DNA of 64,000 nucleotides from Kitasatospora sp. NBC_00315. GTDB taxonomy: Bacteria > Actinomycetota > Actinomycetes > Streptomycetales > Streptomycetaceae. The position numbers were made by a program, and so were the translations under genes. The stretch is from NCBI RefSeq assembly GCF_041435095.1, contig NZ_CP108025.1:7750001-7814000 (forward strand), written 5' to 3'. Every line of letters begins with the position of its first letter. The stretch's first letter is position 1. This document shows, piece after piece, positions 26,633 through 43,889 of this stretch. The notes under the pieces were generated by a model. It searched no databases. It was not told the origin of the DNA and saw only the letters and a list, made by a program, of their open reading frames with translations.

Positions 26633-26638
26633 CATACT
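26633..26638 (+). promoter_or_regulatory. -10 element CATACT of the GntR gene
   Basis: CATACT places the transcription start near 26645, inside the operator motif and 25 bases before the chosen GTG. This arrangement fits autorepression. Confidence 0.4.
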
Positions 26639-26643
26639 GGTCA

Positions 26644-26655
26644 AACATCCGATGA
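26644..26655. promoter_or_regulatory. Shared operator AACATCCGATGA, copy at GntR promoter
   Basis: AACATCCGATGA, a quasi-palindrome around CATC/GATG, is identical over 12 bases to the inverted copy at 32427-32438 upstream of the fuconate operon. Proposed binding site of the GntR protein encoded immediately downstream. Confidence 0.7.
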
Positions 26656-26669
26656 CCGGGGGAGGCGCC

Positions 26670-27341
26670 GTGGCCGTGACCGACGAGGCGATCGGGAAGA
26701 TCAAGGAAATGATCATCTCGGGAGCGCTGCAGCCCGGCGACCGGCTGCCCAAGGAGCCCGTGCTGGCGGCGCAGCTCGGCCTGTCGCGCAACTCGCTCCG
26801 GGAGGCGGTGAAGGCGCTGTCCCTGCTGAACGTGCTGGACGTGCGGCAGGGCGACGGCACGTACGTCAGCAGCCTGGAACCCCCGCTGCTGCTGGAGGCG
26901 CTGACCTTCATCCTGGATCTGCACCGGGACGAGTCGGTGCTGGAGCTGTTCCAGGTCCGCGCGATCCTGGAGCCGGCGGCCGCGGCGATCGCCGCCCAGC
27001 TGATGGACGATCGGCAGGTCGCGGAGCTGCGCGCGATGCTGGCCGAGCCGGGGGAGCACCCCACCGTCGAGGAACTGGTCGCCAACGATCTGGAGTTCCA
27101 CCGCCGGATCGCGGCCGCCACCGGCAACTCGCTGCTCTGCTCGCTGATCGACTCGCTCTCCGGCCGGACCGCCCGGGCGCGGATCTGGCGCGGACTGACC
27201 CAGGACTCGGCGGTGGAACGGACGATGGCCGAGCACCTGGCGATCGTGGAGGCGCTGGAGGCGGGCGATCCGGAGACGGCCCGCGCATGGGCCACCGTCC
27301 ACATCTCCAACGTGACCCAGTGGCTGCGCCGGGCGCTCTGA
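26670..27341 (+). CDS. GntR/FadR family regulator of the fuconate operon
   Basis: A 223-residue regulator: winged helix at residues 1-72 (DRLPKEPVLAAQLGLSRNSLREAVKALSLLNVL in two parts, then GDGTYV) and a FadR-type FCD ligand domain with metal-binding residues (NDLEFHRRIAAATGN, HLAIVEAL). FadR-group proteins with this sequence often sense sugar acids. The GTG at 26670 was chosen because GGGGGAGG precedes it and MAVTDEAIGKIKE is the family start; the ATG at 26652 lies within the operator. It is convergent with, and 19 bp from the end of, the fuconate operon. Confidence 0.9.
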   Translation: MAVTDEAIGKIKEMIISGALQPGDRLPKEPVLAAQLGLSRNSLREAVKALSLLNVLDVRQGDGTYVSSLEPPLLLEALTFILDLHRDESVLELFQVRAILEPAAAAIAAQLMDDRQVAELRAMLAEPGEHPTVEELVANDLEFHRRIAAATGNSLLCSLIDSLSGRTARARIWRGLTQDSAVERTMAEHLAIVEALEAGDPETARAWATVHISNVTQWLRRAL

Positions 27342-27360
27342 GCGCCGTCCGGCGCGGCTC

Positions 27361-28260
27361 TCAGGTGCCTGCCGGCAGCCGGTAGACGCGTACGGCGTTG
27401 CCGGCCAGGACGGCCGCCCGCTCGTCCGGGCTCAGCCGCTCCGTCAGCTCCCGCGCGGTGTCCAGCACCTCGCCGTAACCGGCTGCCAGGGTGCAGACCG
27501 GCCAGTCCGAGCCGAACAGCAGGCGCTGGGGGCCGAACGCCTCCAGGGCGGTGTCGGCGTAGGGGCGCAGGTCCGCCGCCGTCCGCCGGCCGGGGGACGC
27601 CTCGGTGACCAGGCCGGAGAGCTTGGCCACCGTGTTGGGCAGCGCCGCCAGTCGCCGCAGCCGACCGGCCCACGGTGCGAGCTGCCCGGTGGCGACCGGG
27701 GGTTTACCGAGGTGGTCGAGGACGAAGGTGAGGCCGGGCAGCGCGGCCGCGGTGGCGGTCGCGGCGGGCAGGTGGAGCGGCCGGACCACGAGGTCGTACG
27801 CCAGACCGGCCGCCGCGACGGCGCCCAGCCCGCGGCGTACCTCGGGGCGCAGCAGCCAGCGCGGGTCCGGTTCGTCCTGCACCTGGTGCCGGATCGCGAC
27901 CAGGTGCCGACCGCCGGGCCCCTCGCGCAGGGCGGCCAGGGCGTCCGCGACGTCCACGGCGGTCAGGTCGGTCCAGCCGACCACGCCGGCCACCAGCTCG
28001 CTGCCGGCCGCGAGCGCGAGCAGTTCCGGGGTCTCCTCGGCCACCGTGACGGTCTGCACGACGACGGTGGAGCGGACCCCGGCGGCGGTCGCCTCGGGCG
28101 CCAGGTCCGCGAGGGAGAAGGAGCGGCGCAGCGGCGCCAGTGCCCCGCCGCGGATCCAGGTCTGGTCACGGACGGTCAGATCCCAGACGTGGTGGTGCGC
28201 GTCCACCACCCCCGCCCCGGGGAGCGGTCCCGCCGTCGCGCCGTCCGGGGCGGGCCTCAC
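27361..28260 (-). CDS. Amidohydrolase, probable L-fuconolactone hydrolase
   Basis: A 299-residue protein of the amidohydrolase_2 (TIM-barrel) family. Motifs: VDAHHHVWDL near residue 20 (HxH metal pair), HLVAIRHQVQDEPDP, FVLDHLGKPP and LLFGSDWPVC with the catalytic Asp. In the L-fucose/rhamnose non-phosphorylating routes this family opens sugar 1,5-lactones. GTG at 28260 overlaps the TGA of the upstream gene (GTGA), so it is the last gene of the operon. The exact lactone is inferred from neighbours. Confidence 0.87.
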   Translation of the reverse strand: MRPAPDGATAGPLPGAGVVDAHHHVWDLTVRDQTWIRGGALAPLRRSFSLADLAPEATAAGVRSTVVVQTVTVAEETPELLALAAGSELVAGVVGWTDLTAVDVADALAALREGPGGRHLVAIRHQVQDEPDPRWLLRPEVRRGLGAVAAAGLAYDLVVRPLHLPAATATAAALPGLTFVLDHLGKPPVATGQLAPWAGRLRRLAALPNTVAKLSGLVTEASPGRRTAADLRPYADTALEAFGPQRLLFGSDWPVCTLAAGYGEVLDTARELTERLSPDERAAVLAGNAVRVYRLPAGT

Positions 28261-29306
28261 GGGCGCTCCCCGGCCGCGCCGGACGCCCTCGGGGCGCTCG
28301 TCCGGCCGTCCAAGGGGACGGGCACGTCCGGCGGCAGCAGCCCGGTGGCCCGCAGGTCGTGCCAGAGGGCGTCGGGGATGCCGAGATCCAGGAGGGCGGC
28401 GGCGTCGGCGATCTCCGCCGCCGTCCGCGCCCCCACCAGCACCCCGGCGACGGCGGGGTGCCCGAGGGCGAAGCGCACCGCGGCCGCCCGCAGCGGCACG
28501 CCGTACCGCGCGCAGAGCGCCTGCATGCGCAGGGCCCGGTCGAGGGTCTCGCGGGGGGCCGCGGCGTAGTCGTAGGTCGCCCCGGGCCGGGGGTCGGCGA
28601 GCACGCCGGAGTTGAAGACGCCGCCGATGACGACCGACACGCCCCGCCGTTCGGCCTCGGGCAGCACGTCCGCCAGACCGCTCTGGTCGAGCAGGCTGTA
28701 GCGCCCGGCCAGCAGGACGGCGTCGATGTCGGTCTCCCGGACGAAGCGGGCGAGCAGCGCCCCGTGGTTCATCCCGACGCCGATCGCGCGGACCACGCCT
28801 TCGTCCCGCAGGCGTTCCAGCGCCGGAACCGCCTGCCGGAGCGCCTCGTCGACGTGGTCGTCGGGATCGTGCAGGTGGACGATGTCGACCCGGTCCAGGC
28901 CCAGCCGGTTCAGGCTGGCCTCGATCCCGCGCCGGACGCCGTCCGCGCTGAAGTCCCAGACCCGGCGGTGGCTCGCCGGCACGGCGAACCCGTTGGCGAG
29001 GTCGTCGCCGTGCCCGCCGGGGGCAGGCTCCAGCAGCCGGCCGACCTTGGTGGCCACCGTGTACTCCTCGCGCGGGCGCCCGGCGAGGGCGGCCCCGAGC
29101 CTGCGTTCGGAGAGGCCGAGGCCGTAGTGCGGGGCGGTGTCGAAGGAGCGGACTCCGGCGGCCCAGGCGCCGTCGACGGCGGCGGCGGCGTCCTCGTCGC
29201 TCACGGCGGCGAACAGGTTGCCGATGCCTGCGGCGCCGAACGAGAGCGCGGTGACGCGCGCGGTGGAGCGTCCGAGCGGTCGGGTCCGCACGGGTTTCCC
29301 GCTCAC
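28257..29306 (-). CDS. Aldo/keto reductase, probable L-fucose (D-threo-aldose) 1-dehydrogenase
   Basis: A 349-residue AKR. It shows FDTAPHYGLGLSERRLG (catalytic Asp and Tyr), the catalytic lysine in YTVATKVGRLL, a histidine in DIVHLHDPDD, and a C-terminal NAD(P) segment (VLVGARTAAEI). It belongs to the group that oxidises L-fucose or D-arabinose at C1 to the lactone. GTG start overlaps the previous stop (GTGA). The protein supplies the first step of the pathway encoded by this operon; cofactor preference cannot be read with confidence. Confidence 0.87.
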   Translation of the reverse strand: MSGKPVRTRPLGRSTARVTALSFGAAGIGNLFAAVSDEDAAAAVDGAWAAGVRSFDTAPHYGLGLSERRLGAALAGRPREEYTVATKVGRLLEPAPGGHGDDLANGFAVPASHRRVWDFSADGVRRGIEASLNRLGLDRVDIVHLHDPDDHVDEALRQAVPALERLRDEGVVRAIGVGMNHGALLARFVRETDIDAVLLAGRYSLLDQSGLADVLPEAERRGVSVVIGGVFNSGVLADPRPGATYDYAAAPRETLDRALRMQALCARYGVPLRAAAVRFALGHPAVAGVLVGARTAAEIADAAALLDLGIPDALWHDLRATGLLPPDVPVPLDGRTSAPRASGAAGERP

Positions 29307-30061
29307 CGGGCGGCCGGGCGCAGCCGGAGGCCGGCCATGCCGCCGTCCACGGCCAGGGCCGTCCCCGTGACGGAGGAGGCGGCGGGGGAGGCGAGGTAGA
29401 CGATCGCGGCGGCGACCTCCTCGGCGGTGACCAGGCGCCCGGTGGGCTGGCGGGCGCTGAGCGCCGCGCGCTCCCCGGCGGGGTCGTCCGCGGCGTCGAG
29501 CAGCCGGCCGACCCAGGGGGTGTCCACGGTGCCCGGGTTGACACAGTTGACCCGGACGCCCTCCCGGACGTGGTCGGCGGCCATCGCCAGGGTGAGGGAG
29601 AGGACCGCGCCCTTGCTGGCCGAGTACAGGGCTCGTTGCGGCAGGCCGGCGGTGGCTGCGACGGAGCAGGTGTTGACGATCGAGGCGTCGGCGGAGCGGC
29701 GCAGGTGGGGCAGGGCCGCGCGGGTGGTGCGGACGATCCCCAGCACGTTGACGTCCAGCACCCGGTGCCAGAGTTCGTCGCCGTTGTCCTCGACGGTGCC
29801 GGCGGCGCCGATGCCGGCGTTGTTGACCAGGATGTCCAGCCCGCCCAGCTCGGCGCAGGCGAGGCCGACGGCCCGGCGCACCGACGCGTCGTCGGCGACG
29901 TCGGCCCGCCACCCCCGCAGCGGTGCGGCGAGCCCGTCCGGGGCGAGGTCGAGCACGGCGACCTCGGCGCCGCGTTCGCCGAGCAGCCGCGCGGTGGCGA
30001 GACCGATCCCGGACGCCCCGCCGGTGACCAGGGCCCGCAGCCCCGTGAGGTCGGTGGTCAT
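29303..30061 (-). CDS. SDR, probable 2-keto-3-deoxy-L-fuconate 4-dehydrogenase
   Basis: A 252-residue classical [11 protein letters not shown] (residues 13-20) is the cofactor motif, NNAG follows, and the catalytic set is NTCSVA and YSASK. DVAD after the third strand suggests NAD. In the non-phosphorylating L-fucose route an SDR of this type oxidises 2-keto-3-deoxy-L-fuconate to the 2,4-diketo acid. Its ATG overlaps the stop of fucD (ATGA), and it is overlapped by the AKR gene downstream. Assignment rests on context and family. Confidence 0.88.
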
Positions 30062-31428
30062 GCGGTGGCCCCCTGCTGTTCGTCCCGGTGCCCGGCGGCG
30101 AGGTCGGCCGCCCAGAAGGTCCCGTGCGGGTAGGTGTAGGTCTCGATCGAGGTGCGGTGCATGGTGGCGGAGAACCCGGGCGCGCCCGGTGCCAGGTAGT
30201 GGCCGTCCCGGACGACCACCGGGTCGGTGAAGTGCTGGTGGAGGTGGTCGACGTACTCGATCATCCGGTTCTCGGTGCTGCCGGAGAGCGCGACGTAGTC
30301 GAACATCGCGAGATGCTGGACGAGCTCGCACAGCCCCACCCCGCCGGCGTGCGGGCAGACCGGCACGCCGTACTTGGCGGCCAGCAGGAGGACGGCGAGG
30401 TTCTCGTTGACGCCGCCGACCCGGGCCGCGTCCAGCTGGAGCACGTCGATCGCGCGGGCCTGCAACAGCTGCTTGAAGACGATCCGGTTCTGGACGTGTT
30501 CGCCGGTGGCGACCCTGACCGGCGCGACCGCGGCCCGGATCGCGGCGTGCCCGAGGATGTCGTCGGGGCTGGTCGGCTCCTCGATCCAGTACGGGTCGAA
30601 CTCGGCCAGCGCCTTCGTCCAGGTGATCGCGGTGCCGACGTCCCAGCGCTGGTTCGCGTCGACGGCGATCCGGATGTCCGGCCCGACGGCGGCGCGGGCC
30701 GCCCGGCAGCGGCGGACGTCGTCGTCGAGATCGGCGCCGACCTTCAGCTTGATCTGGGTGAACCCCTCGGCGACCGCCTGCCGGGCCAGCCGGGTGAGCT
30801 TGCCGTCGGAGTAGCCCAGCCACCCCGGGGAGGTGGTGTAGGCGGGGTAGCCGCGCCGGCGCAGCTCGGACTCCCGCCCGGCCGCCCCCCGCCGTCCCCG
30901 CCGCAGGAGCTCCAGCGCCTCCCCGGGGGTGAGCGCGTCGGAGATGTACCGGAAGTCGACCTGCGCGACCAGCCAGGCCGGGTCGGCGTCGGCGAGCAGT
31001 TTCCAGAGCGGTGCACCCGCCCGCTTGGCGGCGAGATCCCAGACGGCGTTGACCACCGCGCCGACCGCCATGTGCATCACGCCCTTCTCGGGCCCCAGCC
31101 AGCGCAGCTGGCTGTCACCGGTCAGGTCGCGGTAGAGCGATCCGGGATCCGCGCACAGCTCGGCGACCGGCCGCCCCAGCACGTGCGCGCGCAGCGCCTC
31201 GACGGCGGCCACCTGGACGTCGTTGCCCCGGCCGATGGTGAAGGTGAAGCCGTGGCCCTCGATCCCGTCACCGGCGTCGGTGCGCAGCACCAGGTAGGCG
31301 GCGGAGTAGTCGGGGTCCGGGTTCATCGCGTCCGAGCCGGCCAGTTCCCGGGAGGTCGGGAACCTGATGTCGTGGGTGTCGACGGCGACGATCCGTGCGG
31401 TTCGTCCGGACAACCGGGTGCCTTTCAC
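30058..31428 (-). CDS. fucD: L-fuconate dehydratase (enolase superfamily)
   Basis: A 456-residue enolase-superfamily enzyme of the mandelate racemase group. Visible: [26 protein letters not shown] (first part typical of fuconate dehydratases), [11 protein letters not shown] with the KxK bases at 227/229, metal ligands Asp257 (DANQRW), EEPTSPDD and ATGEHVQN, and CPHAGGVGL with the catalytic His. It dehydrates L-fuconate to 2-keto-3-deoxy-L-fuconate. Length fits the family. GTG at 31428 follows AGGGA and lies 31 bp after the FAH gene. Confidence 0.93.
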
Positions 31429-31459
31429 GCGTCCCTGGCCTTTCGTGCGCTCGTGCCGG

Positions 31460-32311
31460 TCACGCGGCCACGAGGGTCTGGCGCTGGACGCCGAGGCCGT
31501 CGACGGACAGCTCGACGGTGTCGCCCTCCCGGAGGTAGGGATGGTCGGGTAGTCCGAGCGCGACGCCCGCGGGGGTGCCGGTGTTGATGACGTCGCCGGG
31601 GTTGAGCACCATGTACCGGCTGAGGTACCAGACCAGGTGGTTCACCCCGAAGATCATGTTCCTGGTGCTGCCGTTCTGCCGCTGGACGCCGTTGACCGAC
31701 AGGCGCAGGCCCAGCGACTGGGGATCGCCGGCCTCGTCCGGAGTCACCAGCCAGGGGCCCAGCGGGTTGAAGGTCTCGCAGGACTTGCCGAGGTCCCACT
31801 GCCCGGAGTACTCCAGCTGGAACTCGCGCTCCGAGACGTCGTTGCTGATCGCGTAGCCGGCGATCACCCCTTCGGCGTCGTCGGGGCCGTCCAGGTAGCG
31901 GGCCTCACGGCCGATCACGACGGCGAGTTCCACCTCCCAGTCCGTCTTCACCGATCCGCGCGGGATCCGTACCTCGTCACAGGGCCCCACCACGGTGGCC
32001 GGATCCTTCATGAAGACCACGGGACGCGGCGGCGCGGCGGCGCCGGTCTCCTCGGCGTGGTCGACGTAGTTCAAGCCGATGCAGACCACCTTCCCGGGGC
32101 GGGCGACGGGCGGCCCCACCCGGGCGGCCGCGCCGTCCAGGAGCGGCAGCCCACCGGCGGCCAGTGCCGCGCGGACCCGGCCGATGCCGTCGGAGGCGAG
32201 GAACGTGCCGTCGATGTCGTCGGTGAGACCTCCGATGTCCAGCAGGCGTCCGTCCGGGTGGAGGACGGCGGGCCGCTCCGCACCCGGGGCGCCAACACGC
32301 AAGAGCTTCAT
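31460..32311 (-). CDS. FAH-family hydrolase, probable 2,4-diketo-3-deoxy-L-fuconate hydrolase
   Basis: A 283-residue fumarylacetoacetate-hydrolase-family enzyme: MKLLRVG start, [14 protein letters not shown], the [15 protein letters not shown] segment, and the metal site [13 protein letters not shown] with acidic ligands, followed by [14 protein letters not shown] and [11 protein letters not shown]. In this operon it would cleave the 2,4-diketo acid made by the SDR into pyruvate and L-lactate. First gene of the operon; promoter at 32393-32421. Confidence 0.9.
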
Positions 32312-32392
32312 GGGATGCCTTCCGCAGGCCGGGCGGGCGGCCCGGCCTTGCTGCTGGGGTGAAACCTGGGATGAATAACCGTCGTCGGCGTG

Positions 32393-32421
32393 ACTTTACG
32401 ACTGGAGAGGTGCGGAGACAA
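32393..32421 (-). promoter_or_regulatory. Promoter of the fuconate operon (TTGTCT-N17-TAAAGT)
   Basis: Read on the minus strand, a -35 TTGTCT (32421-32416) and a -10 TAAAGT (32398-32393) are separated by exactly 17 bp, about 80 bp upstream of the first gene. Confidence 0.65.
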
Positions 32422-32426
32422 GACAA

Positions 32427-32438
32427 TCATCGGATGTT
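32427..32438. promoter_or_regulatory. Shared operator TCATCGGATGTT at the fuconate operon promoter
   Basis: Inverted copy of AACATCCGATGA found at the GntR gene. It begins 5 bp upstream of the -35 box, a position where a bound regulator could block or recruit RNA polymerase. Confidence 0.7.
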
Positions 32439-32845
32439 AGTGAGGCTGTCCACCGGGCCGGGGGCGCACCCGGACGCCCCGGACGACCCGGACCACCCGG
32501 ACGCCCCGGACGGCGAGGCCCGCGCCGATCGGCACCGGGGCAGGACGGATCGCTGCCCGGCGTGCTCCCCCGGCGTGCTCCCCCGGCGTGCTCCCGCCCG
32601 GCGCGCGTCGCCGCTCGGGCGTCGCCGAGTGCTCGACGCCGGAAATCCGTCGGGGGTTGACGCAGACCCGCTCTGACCGGTGCCGAACCCGCGCACGGGA
32701 AGAAGCGCGAGGACTGGTCGCGGATCGGGTCGAGAATGCATGACGGGACAGTAGGCACGGATCCCCCGGTGATCATGAAGCGTAGAGAACTCCGTGATCG
32801 GGTGAACCGCGCCTGCCCTGCTGCCAGCACCTACTGGCGGACGCC
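32439..32845. other. Gene-free stretch with GC-rich short repeats
   Basis: No gene. It contains repeats of GGACGCCCCGGACGACC type (32469-32515) and three copies of GTGCTCCCCCGGC-like units (32559-32600). Confidence 0.5.
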
Positions 32846-43091: not shown

Positions 43092-43853
43092 ATGAACTCA
43101 ACTGCCGTTCCCACGGCGCTGGTCACCGGCGCCAGCCGGGGCATCGGCGCCGCCACCGCCCGCCGACTCGCCTCCCGGGGCTACCGGGTGGCCGTGAACT
43201 ACTTCTCCAGCCCGGAGGCCGCCGCACTGGTCGTGGCGGAGATCGAGGCGGCCGGCGGCACGGCCTTCGCGATCCGGGGCGACGTCCGCGACCCGGCCGA
43301 GGCCGCCGAGTTGGTGCGACTGGCCGCCGCTGACGGCCGGCTGGACGTGCTGGTCTGCAACGCCGCCGCGCCGTCCTTCACACCCACCCCGGTCGGCACA
43401 CTGCCGTGGGAGGACTTCCACGCGAAGCTGACGGCCGAACTGGCGGGCGTCTACACCCTCACCCAGCACGCCCTGGCCGTGATGGGCGGGCAGCGCGGCG
43501 GGCGGATCGTCTACGTCTCCAGCAACGTGGCCGACGGGCCGCCCGCACCCGGCATGGCCGCGCACGGCACCGCCAAGGCGGCGATCAACACCTTCGCCCG
43601 GTTCGTCGCCGCCGAGGCCGGACCGCTGGGCGTCCGGGTCAACGTGGTCGCACCGGGCCTGGTCCGCACGGAGGCGAGCGCCCGACTGCCGAAGGAGTTC
43701 TCCCAGCGGATCGCGGACCGCACGCCGCTCGGGCGGATCGCGGAACCCGATGATGTGGCACGGGCGATCGCGCTGCTGGTCAGCGAGGACGCGGCGTTCG
43801 TCACGGGGGCCGTCCTCAGCGTCGACGGCGGTTTCGGCATCTCCCGCATCTGA
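43092..43853 (+). CDS. SDR family oxidoreductase with Tyr-to-His in the active site
   Basis: A 253-residue FabG-like SDR. The cofactor motif is TGASRGIG (12-19); VCNAAAP stands where NNAG is usual. The catalytic YxxxK reads HGTAK: His158 (codon CAC), with the lysine at 162. SSNVADG has the usual serine. The Tyr-to-His change also occurs in some SDR relatives, so the protein may still act on some carbonyl or may have lost activity. ATG at 43092. Its stop codon lies inside duplicated block A. Confidence 0.85.
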   Translation: MNSTAVPTALVTGASRGIGAATARRLASRGYRVAVNYFSSPEAAALVVAEIEAAGGTAFAIRGDVRDPAEAAELVRLAAADGRLDVLVCNAAAPSFTPTPVGTLPWEDFHAKLTAELAGVYTLTQHALAVMGGQRGGRIVYVSSNVADGPPAPGMAAHGTAKAAINTFARFVAAEAGPLGVRVNVVAPGLVRTEASARLPKEFSQRIADRTPLGRIAEPDDVARAIALLVSEDAAFVTGAVLSVDGGFGISRI

Positions 43854-43889
43854 CCCGAATCCGCAGGTGGTGGCCGACGGTCGGTCAGT
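43849..43889. repeat. Duplicated block A, copy 2
   Basis: Second copy of block A, beginning just before the SDR stop codon, so the duplication includes the gene's stop. Pairs with the inverted copy at 44205-44230. Confidence 0.85.

Follow-up and report, generated by a model that had tools for sequence, protein, structure and literature searches.

Is the apparent L-fucose operon of Kitasatospora sp. NBC_00315 controlled by the GntR-family gene that adjoins it, and through which DNA sites? The window analyzed here is a stretch of 64,000 nucleotides (G000:C1:7750001-7814000 of the 8.33-Mb genome; 74% GC), in which gntR on the plus strand is followed by five enzyme genes on the minus strand, transcribed in the order FAH-family hydrolase, fucD, short-chain dehydrogenase/reductase (SDR), aldo-keto reductase (AKR), and lactonase. 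A first-pass annotation of this DNA had proposed an L-fucose operon whose promoter has a 12-bp motif in common with the promoter of its regulator. Comparison with relatives leads us to give a probability of roughly 0.8 to the reading that the unit is an autoregulated, enzyme-only L-fucose regulon, with the FCD-type GntR as a repressor acting at CATC-S-GATG operators; the matching sites at the operon and gntR promoters would very probably be docking sites of this adjacent GntR. What began as a guess from one genome would thereby become an actinobacterial L-fucose regulon open to test, its regulator, operator, and promoter layout all defined.

A palindromic site at two promoters

The 12-bp motif AACATCCGATGA is present exactly at 26644-26655 (+) and 32427-32438 (-), as had been reported, and these are its only exact copies in the window and in the whole genome, where eight more sites carry one mismatch. 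Under a first-order Markov model derived from the window, 0.001 exact copies would be expected per 64 kb and 0.13 per genome. The motif core is an odd palindrome, CATC-S-GATG, which occurs as a 9-bp core at 31 genomic places. The description of one copy as the reverse complement of the other is true but carries little meaning, because the motif is itself palindromic.

Both copies sit within recognizable promoter architecture. At gntR, a probable -10 element (CATACT, 26633-26638, +), which has no clear -35 partner and corresponds to CATAAT in promoters of the same regulator clade, is followed after 7 bp by the core, then by the Shine-Dalgarno sequence GGGGGAGG (26658-26665, +) and the GTG start codon; the operator (26644-26655, +) thus lies over the probable transcription start, a position that fits autorepression and a layout found alike in same-clade gntR genes. 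At the operon, the putative operator OA (32427-32438, -) stands directly upstream of a -35 element, TTGTCT (32416-32421, -), which is 17 bp from the -10 element TAAAGT (32393-32398, -). This promoter was located 5 bp downstream of OA, where the first-pass annotation had placed it; it is absent from the hits of a generic sigma-70 scan, and one relative (L101), whose operators are one-mismatch versions only, has TTGTCA-17-TAAAGTCACG at the corresponding place. Downstream of the -10 lies a second, decayed putative operator, OB (CATCCCAGG, 32365-32373, -), 63 bp from OA. An OA/OB-like pair arises in 6 of 1,000 shuffles of the window's own upstream region.

The arrangement recurs at the operons of relatives. 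Near full-length fucD relatives (at least 70% identity) are found in 30 of 61 same-genus genomes, the window's own genome included. We examined 116 loci (113 after dropping three duplicates, L079, L080, and L107), 60 of which have the FAH-family gene directly before fucD (57 non-redundant). The exact core is present within 400 bp upstream of that gene in 51 of the 60 loci (48/57 non-redundant), and, duplicates included, 82 exact-core sites fall in the 23.9 kb upstream of it against 19 in the remaining 1,172 kb. Within 300 bp, 44 of the 57 relatives carry an exact site, compared with a mean of 0.56 and a maximum of 2 in 50 shuffles, and paired sites 54 to 66 bp apart (no more than one mismatch in one site and two in the other) are present in 47/57 (shuffles, mean 0.92, maximum 3). 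In 45/57 the pair is 57 to 64 bp apart and its inner site lies no more than 145 bp from the start codon. In relatives, two sites commonly flank the promoter at a distance of about 60 bp from each other, the first ahead of the -35 and the second past the -10, and the window is built likewise, with exact OA, the promoter, and decayed OB in succession. One genome (G030) has four fucD-type loci (L065, L072, L073, and L074), three of them without CATCSGATG near fucD; L072 carries a GntR of 71% identity without the exact site.

The second line of conservation concerns the regulator's own promoter. In a maximum-likelihood tree of 106 GntR proteins, the window GntR falls in a clade of 41 rows (98/92), hereafter the motif clade or clade A, that excludes clade B as well as GntR2, the GntR that adjoins the ABC transporter of relatives. 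Fifty-four genomes, those having a fuc locus without close GntR or with a clade B gene, were searched for GntR elsewhere, and 47 of them contained one of at least 63% identity. From these the 30 best same-clade gntR genes were taken, all outside fucD loci (three, L213, L218, and L219, adjoin ABC-transporter relatives). Scored by the closest core in the 120 bp before the gene, 12 of them match exactly, 12 differ at one position, and 6 at two, while same-locus control windows hold a core with at most one mismatch in 13/787 and an exact one in none; CATAAT precedes the core by 9 to 11 bp in 29/30. Among clade-A gntR genes inside fuc loci, 13/40 have a self-site within one mismatch. A reversed-pattern control gave no reversed match (at most one mismatch) in the 30 and 40 promoters and no reversed pairs; with 0 places in the genome against 31 for the true core, the reversed 9-mer makes too easy a control, and so the shuffles and same-locus windows were added.

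The pairing of regulator and site, a surmise in the first-pass annotation, thus gains strong comparative support: fuc promoters and, in other chromosomal contexts, same-clade gntR promoters have kept the site, and a different operator accompanies a different GntR clade (below). There is no need to suppose, beyond this, that one protein physically bridges the two ends of the locus, since the site is also present at same-clade gntR genes located elsewhere in the chromosome. By eye, these motif-clade genes away from fucD (L201-L230, in many Streptomyces genomes) are often beside glpD-like and PAC2-family genes, and several have a perfect GACATCSGATGTC self-site.

The pathway, its sugar, and the likely effector

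Pfam recovers all the enzyme families that had been proposed for the route, with GntR plus FCD, Amidohydro_2, Aldo_ket_red, SDR, MR_MLE enolase, and FAA_hydrolase domains across the six proteins of the locus. In order of transcription on the minus strand, the FAH-family protein (32311-31460), a probable 2,4-diketo-3-deoxy-L-fuconate (= L-rhamnonate) hydrolase, has as its best structure match 8gsr, an L-2,4-diketo-3-deoxyrhamnonate hydrolase (E 7.3e-71), and scores 311.7 bits against NCBIfam NF053535, under the cut-off of 500. FucD (31428-30058) is an L-fuconate dehydratase by its phmmer match to 1yey, which extends over residues 12-446, near full length (E 5.7e-204). The SDR (30061-29303) belongs to its family by Pfam and, from its neighbors, is probably the 2-keto-3-deoxy-L-fuconate 4-dehydrogenase; a further SDR gene at 43116-43856 in the window encodes a protein 36% identical to it. 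The AKR (29306-28257), assigned by Pfam and probably the L-fucose dehydrogenase, has L-galactose dehydrogenases as its nearest solved structures, as expected since L-fucose is 6-deoxy-L-galactose. The Amidohydro_2 lactonase (28260-27361), probably of L-fucono-lactonase type and similar to PDB 4dlf (E 1.2e-48), has L-fucono-1,5-lactonase as its best NCBIfam match at 224.7 bits, under the cut-off of 400. Among the matches listed, none of the six proteins reaches an NCBIfam cut-off, so the substrate is assigned from fucD, the gene set, and the regulon. The five genes had been called overlapping, which is correct for fucD/SDR, SDR/AKR, and AKR/lactonase (4 bp each) but not for FAH/fucD, where a gap of 31 bp was found; the convergence of gntR on the 3' end of the operon stands, with 19 bp between the gntR and lactonase stop codons.

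Together these enzymes are predicted to oxidize L-fucose via L-fuconolactone to L-fuconate, which would be dehydrated to 2-keto-3-deoxy-L-fuconate, then oxidized and split into pyruvate and L-lactate. In the stretch examined around the 57 loci, lutA and/or lutB are present in 30 and some component of an ABC sugar transporter in 46; 26 loci combine the two, 50 have at least one of them, and 7 have neither. Genes of the lut type (LUD, LutB_C, and CCG domains) usually stand between lactonase and AKR, which is understandable for a route whose end product is L-lactate. The transporter (Peripla_BP_4 and BPD_transp_2) is usually divergent from the FAH-family gene. The window has neither, and a tblastn query with the LutA, LutB, and ABC-transporter proteins of a relative finds no remnant in it. 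The first-pass annotation had rightly stated that the unit contains no transporter and had seen OA with its promoter, but it overlooked OB and the lack here of transporter and lut genes found in many relatives. Where many relatives place the divergent transporter, between the fuc promoter and an M20 peptidase gene, the window has short direct repeats at 32467-32520 and 32556-32595 (9-bp spacing, and a 13-bp unit in three copies).

What does the regulator sense? Residues D140, H144, H189, and H211 of GntR are invariant in 105/105 aligned sequences, and we take them to be the D-H-H-H metal ligands of the FCD domain. This pattern fits an FCD metal site and hence a hydroxy-acid ligand (L-fuconate, 2-keto-3-deoxy-L-fuconate, or L-lactate) over the free sugar. 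The protein could be a lactate sensor of the LutR kind, reading a LutR operator and answering to the end product L-lactate and to no fucose-specific acid. The operator is near the LutR consensus, the top PDB match of the helix-turn-helix domain is the LutR DNA-binding domain (8pqm), lut genes lie inside the fuc loci of the relatives counted above, and L-lactate is reported as the LutR effector in the portion of PMC11734750 available. We nevertheless consider this alternative unlikely. The similarity to the LutR domain is modest (44 bits), and the two other lutB genes of the genome have no operator: CATCNGATG is absent from both loci (12 kb each), unlike the control of stand-alone lutABC/lutP expected of a LutR orthologue. 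In ten chosen other genomes, 12 places match ACATCSGATGT exactly, and none was recognized before lut genes; seven precede the clade's own gntR, two a GH29 gene, and one a GH95 gene, so that three precede fucosidase-family genes. Two LutR-consensus sites, TCATCGGATGA and TCATCAGATGA, 17 bp apart (G000:C1:1424056; L175:2057 and 2074), lie about 130 bp upstream of an apparent ABC-type export permease gene, and might be used by the fuc GntR or by another regulator.

The regulon members of other species also bear on the sugar itself. The exact core precedes GH29 alpha-L-fucosidase genes in four other genomes, by 116 bp in L105, by 152 bp in L106, at the called start in L109, and doubled (34 and 140 bp) in L244; it precedes a GH95-family gene by about 200 bp in L243 and lies between divergent GH84 and GH20 genes in L135. 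The genomes of L243 and L244 are of the clade-B kind, and their motif-clade gntR lies apart from fuc. The core before GH29 and GH95 genes supports L-fucose, and, with the FucD match to 1yey, these genes strengthen the sugar that the first-pass annotation had inferred.

The same enzymes might still serve D-arabinose, L-galactose, or L-rhamnose. The kinship of the AKR with L-galactose dehydrogenases and an FAH enzyme named for L-rhamnose would suit such a role, as would the failure to find GH29, FucP, or a close homologue of the kin's binding protein in the genome. This is distinctly improbable in view of the nearly end-to-end alignment of FucD with an L-fuconate dehydratase, the fucosidase-family genes in the regulon of other species, and an apparent L-rhamnose kinase/aldolase cluster that sits elsewhere (G000:C1:228-240 kb). 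That cluster (L193, G000:C1:228000-240000) has a lutB-type gene beside an FGGY kinase and an aldolase/SDR fusion, another deoxysugar route paired with a lut gene. The genome holds one GH95-type gene (PF14498 match, about G000:C1:1870.5-1872.8 kb), which lacks the operator and has one one-mismatch core, 6 kb away, in the 20 kb taken. None of the other 29 of the 31 core sites is clearly before a fucose gene, as judged with a crude home-made gene caller that missed lactonase, AKR, and SDR in its own test.

Regulator, operator, and a second clade

The regulator gene (26670-27341, +; GTG start) encodes a winged helix and an FCD domain, both above the Pfam cut-offs (PF00392, 60.2 bits; PF07729, 97 bits), the domain layout of the FadR/FCD subfamily. 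In the mechanism that we infer, a GntR dimer would bind CATC-S-GATG at OA and, more weakly, at decayed OB, 63 bp or six helical turns off, across the operon promoter, and would bind over the start of its own transcript, which would keep its abundance in check. Release would come from a pathway hydroxy-acid, L-fuconate or 2-keto-3-deoxy-L-fuconate being the likeliest, that occupies the FCD metal site.

Orthologous operons with a different regulator offer a natural comparison. Thirty Streptomyces loci whose FucD is at least 77% identical to that of the window carry a clade B gntR, and in the 300 bp before these genes CATCSGATG is present in 0/30 and TGGT-N3-ACCA in 30/30 (shuffles, mean 0.06), in 23 of the 30 within the palindrome GTGGTC-N-GACCAC. 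Conversely, TGGT-N3-ACCA with fewer than two mismatches was not found within 150 bp upstream of any of the 40 clade-A genes, which thereby depart from the classic FadR-subfamily consensus TKGT-N2/3-ACMA. In the available part of PMC4494728, which gives this consensus and names NanR and BioR as exceptions to it, helix-turn-helix position 28 correlates with the bases of the box, Arg preferring a G/C pair. By our own mapping, position 28 is Arg in 30/30 clade B proteins, whereas of 40 motif-clade proteins 33 carry Ala, 4 Pro (the window among them), and 3 another residue. Operator and regulator thus appear to have switched together between clades A and B. We suggest tentatively, at somewhat less than even odds, that two FCD-GntR lineages of the Streptomycetaceae with switched specificity (CATC-S-GATG with mostly Ala/Pro, and GTGGTC-S-GACCAC with Arg at position 28) control one fucD operon in different genomes, and that the regulon is split where both coexist, the motif clade keeping itself and alpha-L-fucosidase genes and the other taking the catabolic operon. 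If true, nature would here have produced a matched change of specificity in regulator and operator, an example of how operators of the FadR type diverge.

Several observations weigh against an autoregulated L-fucose regulon under this GntR. OB has two mismatches in the window, and an exact site within 400 bp of the FAH-family gene is absent in 9/57 relatives (L064, L097, L098, L101, L125, L135, L145, L146, and L147). Two of the 12 exact ACATCSGATGT places (L234 and L235) are at genes without evident tie to fucose. Neither a GH29 gene nor FucP was found in the window's genome, and the kin's binding protein has only distant relatives there, the best at 28% identity (ATPase and permease were not searched). 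The split between clades A and B is one deep event, so that the co-switch does not represent many independent ones. Of the clade-A gntR genes in fuc loci, 27/40 have no self-site within one mismatch; many of these, located downstream of the operon and on its strand, may need no site of their own. Finally, five genomes with the fuc site (L090, L100, L103, L121, and L136) have no GntR of more than 57% identity to that of the window, and in these the operator may be read by GntR2, which has a similar helix-turn-helix, or by another paralogue.

The last point could be extended to the window: the site would be read by a GntR2-type or other regulator, and the adjacent GntR would act elsewhere. In many relatives GntR2 does adjoin the divergent ABC transporter, and many of its helix-turn-helix residues are those of the window protein. 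We regard this as very unlikely, given that no close GntR paralogue was found in the window's genome (next best, 35% identity), that the same site is at the window gntR promoter and, within one mismatch, at 24/30 same-clade genes outside fucD loci, and that only 1/31 GntR2 genes has an exact upstream site. A chance match of the two 12-mers has a negligible probability despite the 31 places of the 9-bp core, and was rejected by genome count, expectation, and shuffles, since two copies lie 5.8 kb apart where 0.13 per genome would be expected and both position and core recur in relatives.

Comparison with known systems

No report of an actinobacterial CATC-S-GATG L-fucose regulon was found in the literature that we covered, most subscription papers lying outside the search, and a search with the operator letters likewise gave none. 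The nearest operator is that of Bacillus subtilis LutR, a FadR-type GntR whose site, TCATC-N-GATGA, is given in the accessible part of PMC11734750. The window sequence TCATCGGATGT agrees with it at 10/11 positions, the core CATC-N-GATG and a GntR winged helix are common to both, and lutA/lutB genes lie within many relatives' fuc loci. The two differ in what they control, L-lactate use (lutABC and lutP) in B. subtilis and fucose enzymes plus the regulator itself here, and in helix-turn-helix position 28, which is Gln in LutR and Pro in the window.

The enzymes follow the same L-fuconate route as the fuc loci of Xanthomonas campestris (the source of FucD 1yey), Halomonas, and others, with FucD, a COG1028 SDR, and a COG0179 FAH-type hydrolase, as far as the portion of PMC5507952 consulted describes them; a figure legend there marks FucR sites. 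Unlike these loci, the Kitasatospora unit has no transporter. The FucR proteins of Campylobacter jejuni (IclR type) and Escherichia coli (DeoR type) also regulate L-fucose genes, but, on the partial text of PMC12566272, they belong to other families, neither being GntR/FCD. With classic FadR-subfamily regulators, as the available part of PMC4494728 presents them, the window's regulator has in common a palindromic operator with odd spacing, and clade B fits their TKGT/ACMA consensus; it differs in its operator, CATC-S-GATG, and in a position 28 that is not Arg.

Having two regulator/operator pairs that switched in nature, on orthologous operons, would help to decipher the DNA recognition code of the FadR-type GntR family, and the regulator could offer a sugar-acid-responsive switch for Streptomyces. 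FadR-type autoregulated catabolic repressors and the L-fucose pathway are already known kinds, and the comparison supports well that the Kitasatospora locus is a further member of them, one with an operator switch.

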